From the NCBI GenBank assembly GCA_017936665.1, contig JAGBFB010000029.1:124001-188000 (forward strand): DNA of 64,000 bases, written 5' to 3'. Both the position numbers and the translations under genes were made by a program. The notes below the pieces were generated by a model, which was given only the letters and a program-made list of their open reading frames with translations, was not told where the DNA came from and did not search any database. Source of the stretch: Spirochaetaceae bacterium (GTDB lineage: Bacteria > Spirochaetota > Spirochaetia > Treponematales > Treponemataceae). Each line of letters begins with the position of its first letter. Within the stretch, counting starts at the first letter, position 1. Below are positions 26,839 to 33,681 of the stretch, one piece after another.

Positions 26839-27831
26839 ATGAGCGATTCAAATCAATTACAACAAGATTGCCTTTGGTGTAGAAATATTATCGAAGATTG
26901 CAAGAAGGAAGTAGGAAAAAGAATTATTGGTCAAACTCAAATTTTTGACGGAATTTTTACAGCAATGATAACTGGCGGAAATATCCTCTTAGAAGGTGTT
27001 CCTGGTCTTGCAAAAACTTTAGCTGTAAAAACTTTTGCAGATATTTCAGGACTAAGTTTTAAGAGAATTCAATTTACTCCAGATTTACTTCCTGCTGATA
27101 TAACAGGAACTATGCTTTACAATCAAAGTGAAAGTAGTTTTTCTGTACGAAAAGGTCCAATTTTTACAAATATTGTTCTTGCTGATGAAATTAACCGTTC
27201 TCCAGCAAAAGTTCAGTCTGCCTTACTTGAAGCCATGGCAGAACATCAAGTTACCATTGGAGAACAAACTTATCAACTTCCAGAACCATTTTTAGTTCTT
27301 GCAACACAAAATCCAATTGAACAAGAAGGAACTTATAATCTTCCTGAAGCTGAATTGGATAGATTTTTGTTAAAAGTAAAAGTTCCATATCCAATGCCAA
27401 ATGAAGAAGTTAAAATTGTAAAAGCAGGTGGAAATCCTGAAAATATTCCTGTGCGACAAATTTTAGATAAGGAAACATTGTATAAGTGTAAAAATTTAGT
27501 TGATTCAATCGTTTGTGATGACAGAATCATTGAATATATTGTTTCTATTATTTCTGTAACTCGTCCAGAAATTGCTGGCGCTCAAAAAGGTAACGATATT
27601 TTACGTTATATCAGTTATGGTGCTTCTCCTAGAGCAAGCATTGCATTGGCAAAATGTGCAAAAGCTCATGCTTTATTCCAAGGTAGAACTTTTGTTTTGC
27701 CAGAAGATGTAAAAGTTACAGCTCCTTCTGTTTTGCGTCATCGCCTTGTACTTTCTTATGAAGCTGGTGCAGACGGAGTTACTGCTGACGAACTTATAGA
27801 CAAAATTATTTCTTTTATTCCAGTTCCTTAA
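26839..27831 (+). CDS. moxR: MoxR-family AAA+ ATPase (first gene of the Bat operon)
   Basis: A 330-residue MoxR ATPase. Walker A is EGVPGLAKT (about residues 52-60) and Walker B LADEINRSP with D116 and E117; ATQNPIEQEGTYNLPEAELD RFL is the sensor region typical of MoxR. These ATPases act as chaperones that activate or assemble VWA-domain partners, here the two VWA proteins downstream. It starts after AGAGG. It leads a tight six-gene operon: moxR, DUF58, a membrane protein, two VWA proteins and a BatD-like protein. Confidence 0.95.
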   Translation: MSDSNQLQQDCLWCRNIIEDCKKEVGKRIIGQTQIFDGIFTAMITGGNILLEGVPGLAKTLAVKTFADISGLSFKRIQFTPDLLPADITGTMLYNQSESSFSVRKGPIFTNIVLADEINRSPAKVQSALLEAMAEHQVTIGEQTYQLPEPFLVLATQNPIEQEGTYNLPEAELDRFLLKVKVPYPMPNEEVKIVKAGGNPENIPVRQILDKETLYKCKNLVDSIVCDDRIIEYIVSIISVTRPEIAGAQKGNDILRYISYGASPRASIALAKCAKAHALFQGRTFVLPEDVKVTAPSVLRHRLVLSYEAGADGVTADELIDKIISFIPVP

Positions 27832-27845
27832 TTTTGAGGTTTTTG

Positions 27846-28745
27846 ATGAAAAAAGAATCTTTGTTGATGTCGGAAAGTAGTACCCTTGCAAAAAGTGCTG
27901 CTTCTTTGCGTCTTAGAGCTAGAACAATTGCAGAAGGTTTAAAACAAGGCAATTTTTCTTCAATGTTTAAAGGACAGGGAATTGATTTTGCTGGTGTTCG
28001 TGAATATCTTCAAGGTGATGATATTCGCTTAATCGATTGGAATGTAACAGCTCGAATGGGAAAAACTTATGTAAAACTTTATGATGAAGAACGAGAGCAA
28101 ATCGTATTTTTTATTGTGGATCGTTCTTTGTCAATGGAAACTGGTTCTTCTAACCTAACTAGATTGAATTTAGCAAGTGAAACTGGAGCTTTGTTATTAC
28201 TTGCTGCAAATTCAAATTCTTGTCCTGTAGGCTGCGTTTTCTTTGACGGAAAAATAAATTTTTCTTGTAAACCTAAAAATTCTCTAGATCAAACAATGTT
28301 GATTCTTTCTAAATTTTCTCGTCGGGAAGAAGTTGTTAATACTGGTTCTGCTTTATCCAGCGCCATAAAAGGTGCTCAGCAAATTCTAAAAAATCGTTCT
28401 TTAATTTTTATTCTTTCAGATTTTAGATGTGGTGATTATGAAGATAATCTTGCTTTGCTTTCACAAAAACATGATGTTGTTGCAATTCGTTTTACGGATG
28501 CAAATGATTTTGAATTACCAAATTTAGGAATGGTAGAAGTGCAAAATCCAGAAAATCAACAAAAAAAGATTTATCCAACATTTTCTTCTGCTTTTAAAAG
28601 AACTTGGCGTGAAAATTCTAATAATCAATTAGAACGTTGGAAATATATGTGTAAAAAAAATGGAGTGGTTCCGTTGGTTATTTCAACAGCGGATAATCCT
28701 GCTTTACGACTTTCTAGATTTTTTGCAGTTAAGGAGCGATTTTAA
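27846..28745 (+). CDS. DUF58 protein of the Bat operon
   Basis: A 299-residue cytoplasmic protein of the DUF58 family, which is almost always found next to MoxR. The family signature GVREYLQGDDIRLIDWNVTA with RMGKTYVKLYDEERE is clear, followed by a VWA-like region where IVDRSLSMETG replaces the MIDAS DxSxS motif and keeps D, S and S. It is thought to work with MoxR on metal-dependent complex assembly. I chose ATG 27846, six bases after GAGG; a TTG at 27834 is possible but poor. It ends three bases before the next gene. Confidence 0.92.
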   Translation: MKKESLLMSESSTLAKSAASLRLRARTIAEGLKQGNFSSMFKGQGIDFAGVREYLQGDDIRLIDWNVTARMGKTYVKLYDEEREQIVFFIVDRSLSMETGSSNLTRLNLASETGALLLLAANSNSCPVGCVFFDGKINFSCKPKNSLDQTMLILSKFSRREEVVNTGSALSSAIKGAQQILKNRSLIFILSDFRCGDYEDNLALLSQKHDVVAIRFTDANDFELPNLGMVEVQNPENQQKKIYPTFSSAFKRTWRENSNNQLERWKYMCKKNGVVPLVISTADNPALRLSRFFAVKERF

Positions 28746-28748
28746 ACT

Positions 28749-29693
28749 ATGTCTAAAACACTCTCTCAAAATCAGAATGTAATGCAACTTTTAAACGGAC
28801 AATTTTTTGTAAATCCCAAAGAAATATTTTGCGGAGATAAAGTTCTTTTACAATATCAAGTTCTTATTCCAGATGAATATGTACTTGTCTTAGGTAATTA
28901 TTTACCGTTAAAAATTACAAATCCTGAAGAACTTAGTAATATCATAAAAACGGATTCTCTAACTTGTACTGTTGAAAGTTTTAGTTTAGAACTTTCTGGA
29001 AATTTGTTAATTTATCAAATTAATTGCGTTGCCTGGCAATTAGGAAAAATTTCTTTTCCGAATATAATCATAGAATTAGATTCTATTTCTTTGGAACTTC
29101 CAGTTTCAGAATTTACGGTTTCATCAATTCTTGAAAAAACAGGAGAAAGTTCTATTCAACCAGTTCTTGCTCCAATACTTTTGCCAGGAACAACCTATAT
29201 AGTTTATGGTTCTATTTTTTTAGGAATAATTTTTCTTTCTTTAATAATTTTTGCTTTTACAAAAAGTTCTAAAATTTATCGTTTTTTTAAAAATATTATC
29301 ATAAATTACAAATACAAAAAGAATCATAAAAAATGTTTAGCCTTATTAAAAAAATTGAACAAAAATTCAGAAAATTTATCAAACGTGGATTTTGCTGAAC
29401 AACTTCAAATCATAATGAGAGGTTATTTTTCATATAGATTTTCAGATAAAGTATACAATCTTGCAACATCAGAAATTGTTTCTTGGTTTTCTTCAATCTA
29501 TAATTTGATTTTGCCAGAACAAGCCGAAGAAGCTATTCATTTATTTTATGAATTGATGCATCGTTGCGATTTTTTGCGTTTTTCTGGCAATTCTGTTAAA
29601 GGAGCAGAACTTCAAGAATCTGAAAGAGATGACTTGATTCAAAAGGGAATTTCAATAATGAATTTAATTGAAAAAGGAAGTGTAAATGTTTAG
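28749..29693 (+). CDS. Bat-operon membrane protein of unknown function
   Basis: A 314-residue protein without an obvious signal peptide. Residues about 1-150 are beta-rich, a single membrane helix lies around 153-175 (TTYIVYGSIFLGIIFLSLII), and the rest is a basic then helical cytoplasmic or periplasmic domain with AEQLQIIMRGYFSYRF. The arrangement recalls DUF4381-type proteins that sit between DUF58 and VWA genes in other Bat operons, but the match is by position and layout rather than motifs. Its last 8 bases overlap the next gene, indicating translational coupling. Confidence 0.65.
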   Translation: MSKTLSQNQNVMQLLNGQFFVNPKEIFCGDKVLLQYQVLIPDEYVLVLGNYLPLKITNPEELSNIIKTDSLTCTVESFSLELSGNLLIYQINCVAWQLGKISFPNIIIELDSISLELPVSEFTVSSILEKTGESSIQPVLAPILLPGTTYIVYGSIFLGIIFLSLIIFAFTKSSKIYRFFKNIIINYKYKKNHKKCLALLKKLNKNSENLSNVDFAEQLQIIMRGYFSYRFSDKVYNLATSEIVSWFSSIYNLILPEQAEEAIHLFYELMHRCDFLRFSGNSVKGAELQESERDDLIQKGISIMNLIEKGSVNV

Positions 29694-30690
29694 TTTTTCT
29701 TCTTACGGTGCTTTATTATTGATTTTACTTTTGCCTCTTTGGATTTTTTTGAAAAAAACAAATATTTTATCAAATTATACTTTCCCATTGTTGTTTACTG
29801 AAGATAATAAAAAAAGTTTTGAGGGGAATACTAAAAAATTTATGTTTTTTTCGATATTGGCAAAAATATTGTTTTCTTTAGCGTTTATTTTTGTTGTAAT
29901 TGCTTTAGCAAATCCCAAAATGTCCTACCAAGAAAAAAGATATATTTCTAGAGGAACTGAAATAATCTTTGTTGTGGATTCTAGTCCTTCCATGTCTGCT
30001 TTGGATATAGGCGATGATACTAGATTACAGGCTGCAAAGGATGCAATTTTATATGTTACTCAAGGAATGCCAGAAACTTCTTTTGGTTTAATTTCTATGG
30101 CGACTGAAGCTGTTTGTCTTGTTCCACCTTCTATGGATTTTGAGATTTTCAAAAAACAGTTAGAAGAGTTAAAAATTGGTATTCTGGGGGATGGAACTGC
30201 CTTGGGTGTTGGAATAAGTAATGCAGTTTATCATCTTTCATCATCTGTGGCTCCTAAAAAGGCAATAGTTTTAATTACCGATGGCGAAAACAATGCAGGA
30301 ACTGTTCATCCTTTTACTTCTGCAAAGTTAGCAACAGAGTTTAATATTCCAATTTATGTTTTAGGAATTGGAACTACAGGAACTGTTCCTGTGGAATACA
30401 CTGATTATAAAACTGGCAAAACCTACTCTGGCTATTTGGAATCAGGATTTAATTCTGAAAGTTTAGAAGAAATTGCAAAAATTACAAAAGCTGATTATTT
30501 TGATATTCAAACTTTACCAGATTTAAAAGAAGTTATATCAAGTATAGTTAGAAACGAATCAGTTGTGCCTCATTTTTATACAGTTTTAGTTGATAAACAA
30601 TATTATTCTTTATTTTTATTTTTATCTATTTGCTGTATTATTTTAGGATATTTGATTAAGAGATTTTATCTTAGAGAAATTCTCTTATAA
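29686..30690 (+). CDS. batA: VWA-domain membrane protein (BatA-like)
   Basis: A 334-residue protein with two N-terminal membrane helices (about 8-22 and 56-75), a von Willebrand factor A domain and a C-terminal helix. The MIDAS metal site is complete: D98-S-S100-P-S102 with a following Thr in DGTALGVG and Asp in ITDGENNAG. By the positive-inside rule the VWA domain should face the periplasm. BatA and BatB proteins were named from Bacteroides aerotolerance work; in spirochetes they have been linked to envelope stress, though roles remain debated. It overlaps the preceding gene and is followed after 70 bp by a second VWA gene. Confidence 0.9.
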   Translation: MFSFSSYGALLLILLLPLWIFLKKTNILSNYTFPLLFTEDNKKSFEGNTKKFMFFSILAKILFSLAFIFVVIALANPKMSYQEKRYISRGTEIIFVVDSSPSMSALDIGDDTRLQAAKDAILYVTQGMPETSFGLISMATEAVCLVPPSMDFEIFKKQLEELKIGILGDGTALGVGISNAVYHLSSSVAPKKAIVLITDGENNAGTVHPFTSAKLATEFNIPIYVLGIGTTGTVPVEYTDYKTGKTYSGYLESGFNSESLEEIAKITKADYFDIQTLPDLKEVISSIVRNESVVPHFYTVLVDKQYYSLFLFLSICCIILGYLIKRFYLREILL

Positions 30691-30760: not shown

Positions 30761-32383
30761 ATGTTTTTTGAGCGACCACAAATGTTGTTACTCCTAATAA
30801 CACTTTTAATTCCTATAGTATATATTTTTCCCAAAATAAAACAAATAGATTCTTCTCCATATTTTTTGTTTAAAAATAAAAAGGTAACTCGAAAATTTGT
30901 AAAAAATATGCAAGGTATGCTTTACGTAAGAAGTATTCTTTTTATGCTTGCTTGGTTTTGTATAATTGTTGCTTTTTCAGGACCTTATTGGGGGAAGGAA
31001 ATTATTCCAATTCAGAAAAATGGAAGTGCAGTTTCTTTTGTTTTTGATATTTCTTGGAGTATGACAGCAGAAGATGTTCTTCAGGAAGATTCTTCTTACA
31101 TATCAAGATTAGATGCATCTAAAAAATATGCAAAATCATTATTACTTCCAAATAAGACTGACGATATGGTAACTGTTTCTGTTGTTTTAGCAAAAGGTGA
31201 TGGATATGTTGCCGTTCCTTCAACAGAAGATCACGAAGCAGTTTTTTCTGTAATAAATGCATTATCTCCAAATTTAATGACATCTAAAGGAAGTAATATT
31301 GGAGCAGGAATTGAAACGGCAATTTCTACTTTTCCAACAAGTCAGGCTCGACAAGGAACAATCATTGTTTTTACTGACGGAGAAGAAACTATTATTTCTT
31401 TAGAAAAAGCCTTAGAAAATGCTATAAATCATGGAATTGGGGTTTATATTGTTGGTTTTGGAAATCCTAAAGGTTCTCAGTTGCAATTAGGAGAAAATAA
31501 AATAACAACTTTTTTGGAAGAAGGCAAAATTCAAAAAATGATTTCAAATTTGAAAAATAAAACTTCTCTATATAATATACCTTTGTATTATTCAAAATTT
31601 GATGACAACAATTATGAGTTATTAAAAATTTTATATCCAAAAGATTTTAATTTGCAAGAATCTTATCAAAACGGATATGAGGTAAAAAAAGTTCCTCGCC
31701 ATAATTTATTTATTTTGATTGCCATAATTTTATTCGTTCTAGGAATGTTTATTTCATACAGAAAAATCAGTTTATCAAAAATAGCTTCAGTTAGTGGATT
31801 TTTATTGATTTTAATGATGTTTTCTTCTTGTTCATACAATGTAAAAGAATCTTTTGATTTATTACAGGGGAATTTTTATTGGCATCAAAAAAAATATCAA
31901 CATGCACAAATGAAGTATTTGCAAATTCTAAATTTAAGTGAAGAATCAGATAATCAAGAATTAAAACAGTATGCAACTTTTGCCTTAGGTTCTTCGTATG
32001 TTATGCAAAATGAAGAAGAAGCTGCTTTTCAGCGGTTAGAAAGTGTTGCTCCAAATGCTCCAGATGAAATTAGATTTGCTTCTGCATATAACATTGGAGT
32101 TTTATCCTATTCAGTAGGAAATTATGAAAAATCAATTCAGTCCTTTAGAAATGCTTTAATGATAAATCCTCAATCTATTGAAGCAAAAATCAATTTAGAA
32201 CTTGCTTTAAGACAAGGTTCAAAAACTGTACAAAATAATAAATCTCAAGTAAAAACTGCTTCTGAGAATAAAGAACATTCAGTGTTAAAAGATGCTGTTT
32301 TTTCAATAATTAGGGAGAACGAACAAAAACAATGGAAGAGTCAAGAAAAACAAGACGAATTTCAAAGTCCTACAGATTACTAA
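30761..32383 (+). CDS. BatB-like VWA protein fused to a BatC-like TPR lipoprotein module
   Basis: A 540-residue protein. Two N-terminal helices and a VWA domain with an intact MIDAS start (D96-I-S98-W-S100) make up the BatB part, closed by a helix near residue 325. A short basic stretch, SYRKISLSK, then leads into a second hydrophobic run that ends MFSSC at Cys357, a good spirochetal lipobox. The remainder contains TPR-like helices (YATFALGSSYVM, AYNIGVLSYSVGNYEKSIQS) like BatC. So two neighbouring genes seem to have fused with the lipoprotein signal retained inside. An ATG near 31759 preceded by AGGA could allow internal initiation. The 3' end overlaps the next gene by 52 bp. Confidence 0.88.
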   Translation: MFFERPQMLLLLITLLIPIVYIFPKIKQIDSSPYFLFKNKKVTRKFVKNMQGMLYVRSILFMLAWFCIIVAFSGPYWGKEIIPIQKNGSAVSFVFDISWSMTAEDVLQEDSSYISRLDASKKYAKSLLLPNKTDDMVTVSVVLAKGDGYVAVPSTEDHEAVFSVINALSPNLMTSKGSNIGAGIETAISTFPTSQARQGTIIVFTDGEETIISLEKALENAINHGIGVYIVGFGNPKGSQLQLGENKITTFLEEGKIQKMISNLKNKTSLYNIPLYYSKFDDNNYELLKILYPKDFNLQESYQNGYEVKKVPRHNLFILIAIILFVLGMFISYRKISLSKIASVSGFLLILMMFSSCSYNVKESFDLLQGNFYWHQKKYQHAQMKYLQILNLSEESDNQELKQYATFALGSSYVMQNEEEAAFQRLESVAPNAPDEIRFASAYNIGVLSYSVGNYEKSIQSFRNALMINPQSIEAKINLELALRQGSKTVQNNKSQVKTASENKEHSVLKDAVFSIIRENEQKQWKSQEKQDEFQSPTDY

Positions 32384-33681
32384 TTTGTTGCATTTTGTTA
32401 TTTTTGTTTAACACACTTAGTTTATTTGCTCACAGATATTCTTATGTTGTATTTAAGCCTGTTGAAGAATATATTTTTGCTGGAGAAGATTCTGCCTTTG
32501 AAGCAACTATTAATAACATTCGTCCTGCGGATGTTTTGGTTACAGTTCAAACCTTGCCAGAAAATGTAACTTTTGTTTCTTCCGAAAAAACAGAAATTCT
32601 TGATGAAAATGGACGAAGTACAAGAATTAGAGTTGTGTTTCGCTTTGATGAAGTTGGAAATTTTAAACTTCCTCCGATAGCATCTAGAATTAGATACGGT
32701 TCTTACAAATTATCTATTACTCCTGTAACTGTTTTATATAATCCTCAAACAATTCAGCCTATTGTACGGTTTTCAGTTTTGGAACCTAGCGATAAACAAT
32801 ATTACGAAGGTCAGCGAATAAAACTACAATTAACAGCAATTTTTGCCTCAAATATTTACAGTTTTACAACATCATTAAAAGAAGATTCTGTTTTTTATCC
32901 TAAAGGAAATTTAGCTATTCTTCCTTTACAAATCGAAAAATTTTCTGATGCAGAATATCCTATAGAAATTTTTGAAATGATTCCTCTCACTAATGGAAAA
33001 ATAGAAGTTCCTCCTGTAAGTGTAAAAGTTAAAACTTGGAATGGAATTGAAAAAAATACAATTTCAGAGCCACTTATATTAAACGTAAAAAAATCTGTTG
33101 TAAAAAATGAAGTAGATGCAGCTAAAACCCAAGAAACTGTAACTTTACAAAATGATTCTTCTTTAGAAAATAATTCAGTTCCTTCAATTTCAAAAAATAA
33201 TCCTGAATTGCAAAATGTAATTCAAGAAATAAAAAATTTACGATTGATTGAACGAAAAAAAATATTTCCAATTTCAATTATCAAAGAACGCAGGCAACTT
33301 GAACTTCAATGTGAATTACAAAATACTGAAAACGAATTTTCTGTTTCGCTTTTTTATGTTCTTTTGGCAATAACAGTAATTTTTATCATTTTGTTTATCA
33401 TTTTTGCTATCTTAAAAAAGAAAACCAAGATGATAATTTTTATGATAATTGCTGTAACTTTACTAATTTTGGTTGGAATTTATAAAATTCAACTTAATAA
33501 GGATTTTGCACTTATTTTACAAGGAGAAGTTTTATCTATTCCAGAAGAAACGTCATCTTTAAATATTTCTCTAAATTCAGGCTTTAGGGTAGAGGTTAAA
33601 GGTGAAACTAAAGATTGGATTTTTATTAAATATGGAAATTCTACTGGATGGATAAAAAGAGAAAATTTATTATTTTTGTAG
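32332..33681 (+). CDS. BatD-like membrane protein with C-terminal SH3-like domain
   Basis: A 449-residue protein with a signal peptide (hydrophobic LLICCILLFLFNTLSLFA), a large beta-sandwich-rich extracytoplasmic region like BatD oxygen-tolerance proteins (YVVFKPVEEYIFAGEDSAFE at its start), two adjacent membrane helices around residues 340-385 and a short final module, VEVKGETKDWIFIKYGNSTG, that resembles a bacterial SH3 domain. Classical BatD has the beta domains and one helix; the SH3-like tail is a variation. It overlaps the preceding gene by 52 bp and closes the Bat operon. Confidence 0.8.
   Translation: MEESRKTRRISKSYRLLICCILLFLFNTLSLFAHRYSYVVFKPVEEYIFAGEDSAFEATINNIRPADVLVTVQTLPENVTFVSSEKTEILDENGRSTRIRVVFRFDEVGNFKLPPIASRIRYGSYKLSITPVTVLYNPQTIQPIVRFSVLEPSDKQYYEGQRIKLQLTAIFASNIYSFTTSLKEDSVFYPKGNLAILPLQIEKFSDAEYPIEIFEMIPLTNGKIEVPPVSVKVKTWNGIEKNTISEPLILNVKKSVVKNEVDAAKTQETVTLQNDSSLENNSVPSISKNNPELQNVIQEIKNLRLIERKKIFPISIIKERRQLELQCELQNTENEFSVSLFYVLLAITVIFIILFIIFAILKKKTKMIIFMIIAVTLLILVGIYKIQLNKDFALILQGEVLSIPEETSSLNISLNSGFRVEVKGETKDWIFIKYGNSTGWIKRENLLFL

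Follow-up and report, generated by a model that had tools for sequence, protein, structure and literature searches.

The window analysed here, a stretch of 64,000 nucleotides from a Spirochaetaceae genome assembled into 43 contigs (G000; 2.58 Mb), contains a bat-type gene cluster whose features are listed in Table 1. A VWA protein gene that continues into TPR repeats lies on the same strand as neighbouring genes for a MoxR-type ATPase, a DUF58 protein and a BatA-type protein, which is the gene neighbourhood typical of bat loci. A PHROGs search of the neighbouring proteins returned nothing useful. The downstream gene encoding a predicted exported protein overlaps the 3′ end of the VWA–TPR gene by 52 nt; no Shine-Dalgarno match precedes the ATG listed for it, and its true start may lie further in.

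Table 1. Features of the bat-type cluster, with positions in the window, and loci of related triple fusions
Feature	Position	Strand	Remarks
MoxR-type AAA+ ATPase	26839..27831	+	same cluster
DUF58 protein	27834..28745	+	same cluster; start uncertain, possibly 27849
Uncharacterised membrane protein	28749..29693	+	same cluster; without Pfam match
BatA-type VWA membrane protein	29686..30690	+	Pfam and NCBIfam matches
batB–batC fused gene	30761..32383	+	540 aa, 540 open codons; VWA and TPR matches
BatB half	30761..31762	+	spans at residues ~8-26 and ~52-72, VWA 93-208, span ~313-334
AGGA and in-frame ATG (Met329)	31741..31747	+	judged not to be a translation start
Basic loop after third span	31760..31789	+	residues 334-343; predicted cytoplasmic
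Internal signal-peptide-like hydrophobic segment with lipobox MFSSC	31790..31831	+	residues 344-357
Cys357 codon	31829-31831	+	last residue of MFSSC (353-357)
BatC half	31829..32383	+	predicted mature TPR lipoprotein from Cys357
Predicted exported protein	32332..33681	+	C-terminal SH3-like domain; at batD/batE position
BatA–BatB–BatC triple-fusion loci (other genomes)			L041, L048, L107, L110, L112-L114, L117-L123, L144, L154, L159, L160

A first-pass annotation, made from the letters of the window, had described this gene as encoding a VWA membrane protein that continues, in frame, into a hydrophobic run, the motif MFSSC and TPR repeats, that is, as a BatB–BatC fusion with an intact lipobox at Cys357. 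This description is borne out by the uninterrupted frame, by the domain matches and, as shown below, by the conservation of the homologues. Pfam VWA_2 matched residues 93-208 (E=3.9e-13) and TPR_1 matched residues 443-471 (E=2.4e-6, slightly below the gathering score), so that the two halves have the make-up expected of BatB (a VWA domain between membrane segments) and of BatC (TPR repeats). No Bat family model scored above its curated cut-off. The sole Bat-named matches were to Leptospira-specific NCBIfam models with high cut-offs, namely BatA/BatB_Lepto for the BatB half (BatB_Lepto, 43 bits versus a cut-off of 350) and TPR_BatC_Lepto for the BatC half (BatC_Lepto, 36 bits versus 175), and we therefore refer to the halves as BatB-like and BatC-like. 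Hydrophobic segments were found at residues ~8-26, 52-72, 313-334 and 339-357. The fourth ends in LLILMMFSSC at Cys357, is preceded by a loop containing one Arg and two Lys, and is followed by the TPR helices. Cys357 thus stands at the end of a positive n-region, a hydrophobic h-region and a lipobox, as in a lipoprotein signal; it departs from the N-terminal position of such signals, since three predicted membrane segments come before it in the chain. With two proteins in one chain and a signal-like joint between them, the product has the layout of a polyprotein matured by a signal peptidase. In the AlphaFold2 model a low-confidence stretch, one of several, covers residues 353-360 at the predicted cut.

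Whether Cys357 is conserved among fused homologues had been put forward as a point on which the internal lipobox would stand or fall. Matches were found in 268 of the 274 genomes of the window's family that were searched, and part of these were fetched for inspection. In a first set, the Cys357 column held Cys in all 98 fused ORFs and in all 17 BatC proteins with a frame of their own. One of the latter (L139, G246) proved to be a fused gene, its apparent split being a frameshift where the linker has eight A in a row, and was dropped as a separate-gene case, leaving 16. Extra cases from the family kept the Cys as well (5/5 fused, 4/4 separate), as did 60 of 60 additional fused ORFs, among which weak-scoring matches had deliberately been taken, giving 163/163 fused and 20/20 separate for the family. 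Two fetched loci (L140, G012; L142, G257) were without BatC; the BatC of G012 lies on another contig (L141) and was counted as separate, and G257 was left uncounted. A class-wide search of 388 genomes matched 301 and added fused ORFs from two other families of the order, with Cys in the 12 fetched (ten from f3, two from f2), and separate BatC proteins from other families of the class, with Cys in 19/19 plus 2/2 (L200, L201). Ser, Gly or Ala precedes the Cys in each of these 21. Across the class, the Cys was therefore present in 175 of 175 fused ORFs examined, and the lipobox of the fusion stands, on firmer ground than the first-pass annotation had claimed. The suggested comparison of gene order with relatives in which batB and batC are separate likewise came out as anticipated: the order is the same, and the motif lies at the start of BatC, with Cys in 41/41. 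G031, a 1.1 Mb genome of the window's family, yielded no match of any kind, and neither did most of the listed genomes of another family, f11, which suggests loss of the bat cluster.

The residues around the Cys were also those of a lipobox. All but one of the 175 fused ORFs have Ser, Gly or Ala at position −1 (174/175; Ser or Gly in 98/98 of the first set and 60/60 of the later set; Ser, Gly or Ala in 11/12 from f2 and f3), and 96/98 have F, L, V, M, A or I at position −3. A PROSITE-like lipobox pattern fits the Cys357 column in 82 of the 98 fused homologues, versus 13 of the 605 other Cys residues of the same proteins, indicating that the match is not due to chance; in the 16 that do not fit, Cys, Asn or Pro occupies position −2 or −4. 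Cys357 is the sole invariant column among residues 334-378 of these 98 ORFs, and the stretch corresponding to residues 330-356 ranges from 22 to 60 residues in length, showing that the linker varies freely. As judged from these comparisons, the internal lipobox of the fused proteins is under clear long-term constraint. Atypical lipoboxes were seen at L149 (G545), with Asn at −1, and at L157 (G008), with Glu at −3, and these two proteins would be natural candidates for altered processing.

To be used as a lipoprotein signal, the fourth segment would have to run in the proper direction through the membrane. Positively charged loops stay cytoplasmic (the positive-inside rule). The first and second membrane segments are joined by a loop with a net charge of +7, and the C-terminal tails of separate BatB proteins are net positive in 15/15 cases; by this rule both are predicted to be cytoplasmic and the VWA domain to be outside. 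Of the 98 fused ORFs, 90 have a net positive loop ahead of the internal signal, 6 a loop of zero net charge and 2 a negative one, which would place the signal in the in-to-out direction, as Lgt and LspA require. The third membrane segment is likewise preceded, on the side assigned to the periplasm, by a basic stretch, VKKVPRH, which counts against this topology. Simple hydropathy gave four segments in 44 of 84 double fusions and 2, 3, 5, 6 or 7 in the other 40, such segment counts being crude.

BatA–BatB–BatC triple fusions were found in 18 genomes, belonging to g16 of f1 and to two genera of f3. In those of g16, the last segment of BatA is followed by a basic loop and the second segment of BatB, so that the first BatB span is missing at the A–B junction, and the third segment and the signal both remain at the B–C junction. 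Loss of the first BatB span at the A–B junction would preserve the membrane direction of what follows, and the triple fusions thereby give independent support for the proposed topology. By hydropathy, 19 long ORFs had six segments in 14 cases, seven in three, five in one and three in the last (G515), which was dropped as a triple fusion because no BatA match falls within its long frame, BatA being encoded in a different one.

Taken together, we consider it likely that Cys357 is lipidated and that signal peptidase II cuts there, yielding a membrane-bound BatB and a lipoprotein BatC. The BatB part would be inserted with its VWA domain in the periplasm, the third span returning the chain inward, and the basic loop would stay in the cytoplasm. 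The fourth hydrophobic segment would then direct the export of the TPR part, in the manner of a lipoprotein signal peptide lying within the chain, Cys357 would be lipidated by Lgt, and LspA would cut just before it. BatB would remain in the membrane with the spent signal still on its C-terminus, and the TPR protein BatC would be freed as a lipid-anchored protein in an amount equal to that of BatB, as in the two-gene relatives. Both enzymes are encoded in the genome (LspA, 87.6 bits, cut-off 25; Lgt, 207.7 bits, cut-off 24.9). Cleavage into two products had already been proposed in the first-pass annotation, and conservation, topology and the separate-gene relatives now strongly suggest it. Because the lipobox is intact and conserved in all fusions of the class examined, the chain is probably cut after synthesis, and processing by signal peptidase II is the simplest cause of the constraint on the lipobox. 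Known substrates of this enzyme, as described in the available text of PMC8689077, have their signal at the N-terminus, which speaks against the proposal, as does the need for LspA to act behind three membrane spans.

The chain might instead stay uncut, the fourth segment serving as an anchor, Cys357 being free or lipidated without cleavage, and BatB and BatC working as one protein. The best case for this alternative comes from outside the class, where 11 fused BatB–BatC proteins from eight families keep the hydrophobic segment and none of them (0/11) has the lipobox or its Cys, so that such fusions could work uncut. A hydrophobic stretch without lipobox was also found in five separate BatC proteins from outside the class, and the lipobox was absent from six further ones. 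These fusions show that neither fusion nor the TPR domain needs the Cys, and a structural role for the Cys was rejected on the same grounds. An uncut chain, however, would have no obvious use for an invariant Cys with Ser, Gly or Ala before it, in a motif that is rare at the other Cys residues of the same proteins and that forms the start of BatC wherever the gene is separate. We therefore regard an uncut chain as unlikely. BatC appears to be a lipoprotein in this class only, and the signal of the fused copies is of the type found in their separate relatives. Several internal segments of the out-of-class fusions (L183-L193) end in signal-peptidase-I-like motifs, e.g. AFA, FYA or GYA, and these proteins are possibly a parallel case of a polyprotein.

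Translation could also begin a second time within the gene, an in-frame start in the third span or the following loop making BatC with an N-terminal signal of its own. The first-pass annotation had pointed to such a route to two products, by way of an ATG with AGGA near 31759. The ATG actually lies at 31745, and at 28 residues before the Cys it would give a signal peptide of plausible length, but the AGGA (31741-31744) abuts it with zero spacing and no Shine-Dalgarno sequence is present at a usable distance. Among the 98 fused genes, 40 have an ATG in frame after the third segment and before the signal, and in 5 of the 98 it is combined with a Shine-Dalgarno match of at least 4 nt. When any start codon with a 5-nt match was accepted, 6/98 fused genes qualified versus 9/16 separate batC genes, the stretches searched not being identical in the two groups. 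On this survey the internal start was rejected, and the second route did not hold up; we consider internal initiation very improbable.

The reading frames of several separate batB/batC pairs overlap or abut, and loss of the batB stop codon would automatically enclose the batC signal, so that the lipobox could in principle be a functionless relic of the fusion. We built a quick tree of 112 rows from the BatB and TPR parts, excluding the junction; it has long branches, and G396 fell outside it, below the score cut-off. The tree requires four changes between the fused and separate states within the class (101 rows, G246 excluded) and seven overall, and the lipobox is kept on both sides of each in-class change. 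Fusion and fission are not separable by these counts, two to four fusions being compatible with the tree. The main fused clade comprises 49 fused rows plus G246; over its total branch length of 23.8 substitutions per column the Cys was never lost, while neighbouring columns varied freely. This conservation largely refutes the relic explanation, to which we give very little credence. An error of assembly or sequencing as the source of the fusion, as the eight-A frameshift of G246 might hint, is refuted by the recurrence of the fused ORF in 163 family genomes and 12 outside, several of them single-contig assemblies, and the probability of such an error is negligible.

Fusion of batB and batC in spirochetes is already known, which the first-pass annotation does not mention. 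According to the available text of PMC3557215, the two genes are fused in Leptospira biflexa but seem to be unfused in pathogenic leptospires; other spirochetes also have bat fusions, and no Bat homologues were found in T. pallidum. As in the window, the L. biflexa gene lies in a bat cluster and joins a VWA membrane protein to TPR motifs; it is treated there as one protein, and the word "lipoprotein" does not occur in the main text, whereas the gene described here has a conserved internal lipobox. BatC proteins from outside the class, fused or separate, lack the lipobox, in a comparison that contains no identified L. biflexa sequence. BatA, BatB, BatC and BatE are named among the proteins detected by proteomics in Brachyspira in the available text of PMC4955376. 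An open-licence literature search found no paper on an internal lipobox or on a polyprotein cut by signal peptidase II, and against the available text of PMC3557215 it is the conserved internal lipobox that looks new.

The closest counterparts are the BatB and BatC that treponemes and other Spirochaetia (e.g. G037) encode in two genes, with the same proteins in the same order and the lipobox at the start of BatC. They differ in that BatC has a gene of its own, with a separate start codon that a Shine-Dalgarno site usually accompanies. Another parallel is FbcH of Bradyrhizobium japonicum, in which cytochromes b and c1 are made as one precursor that a signal peptidase cuts at an internal signal sequence, and in which no lipid is known to be involved. 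Both systems place a membrane protein and an exported protein in one chain, with an internal signal between them; unlike that of FbcH, the joint proposed here is a lipobox, on which Lgt and signal peptidase II would act.

If BatB and BatC are indeed separated in this manner, it would be an unusual bacterial way of making two proteins from one gene, and the lipoprotein pathway would act beyond N-terminal signal processing, also separating proteins made together in equal supply. Lipoprotein signals are normally sought at N-termini, so that current counts would miss internal cases and surveys should be widened. The protein would also be a simple test case for how Lgt and LspA deal with a substrate that is anchored behind membrane spans, and would offer a way into the study of the Bat complex. 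It seems fairly probable, if slightly less so than cleavage in the window's protein, that signal peptidase II matures a conserved polyprotein throughout the greater part of the Treponema family and in two or more further families of spirochetes; BatB and BatC would then stay joined under globomycin, and in some species a BatA–BatB–BatC chain would fail to release BatC.
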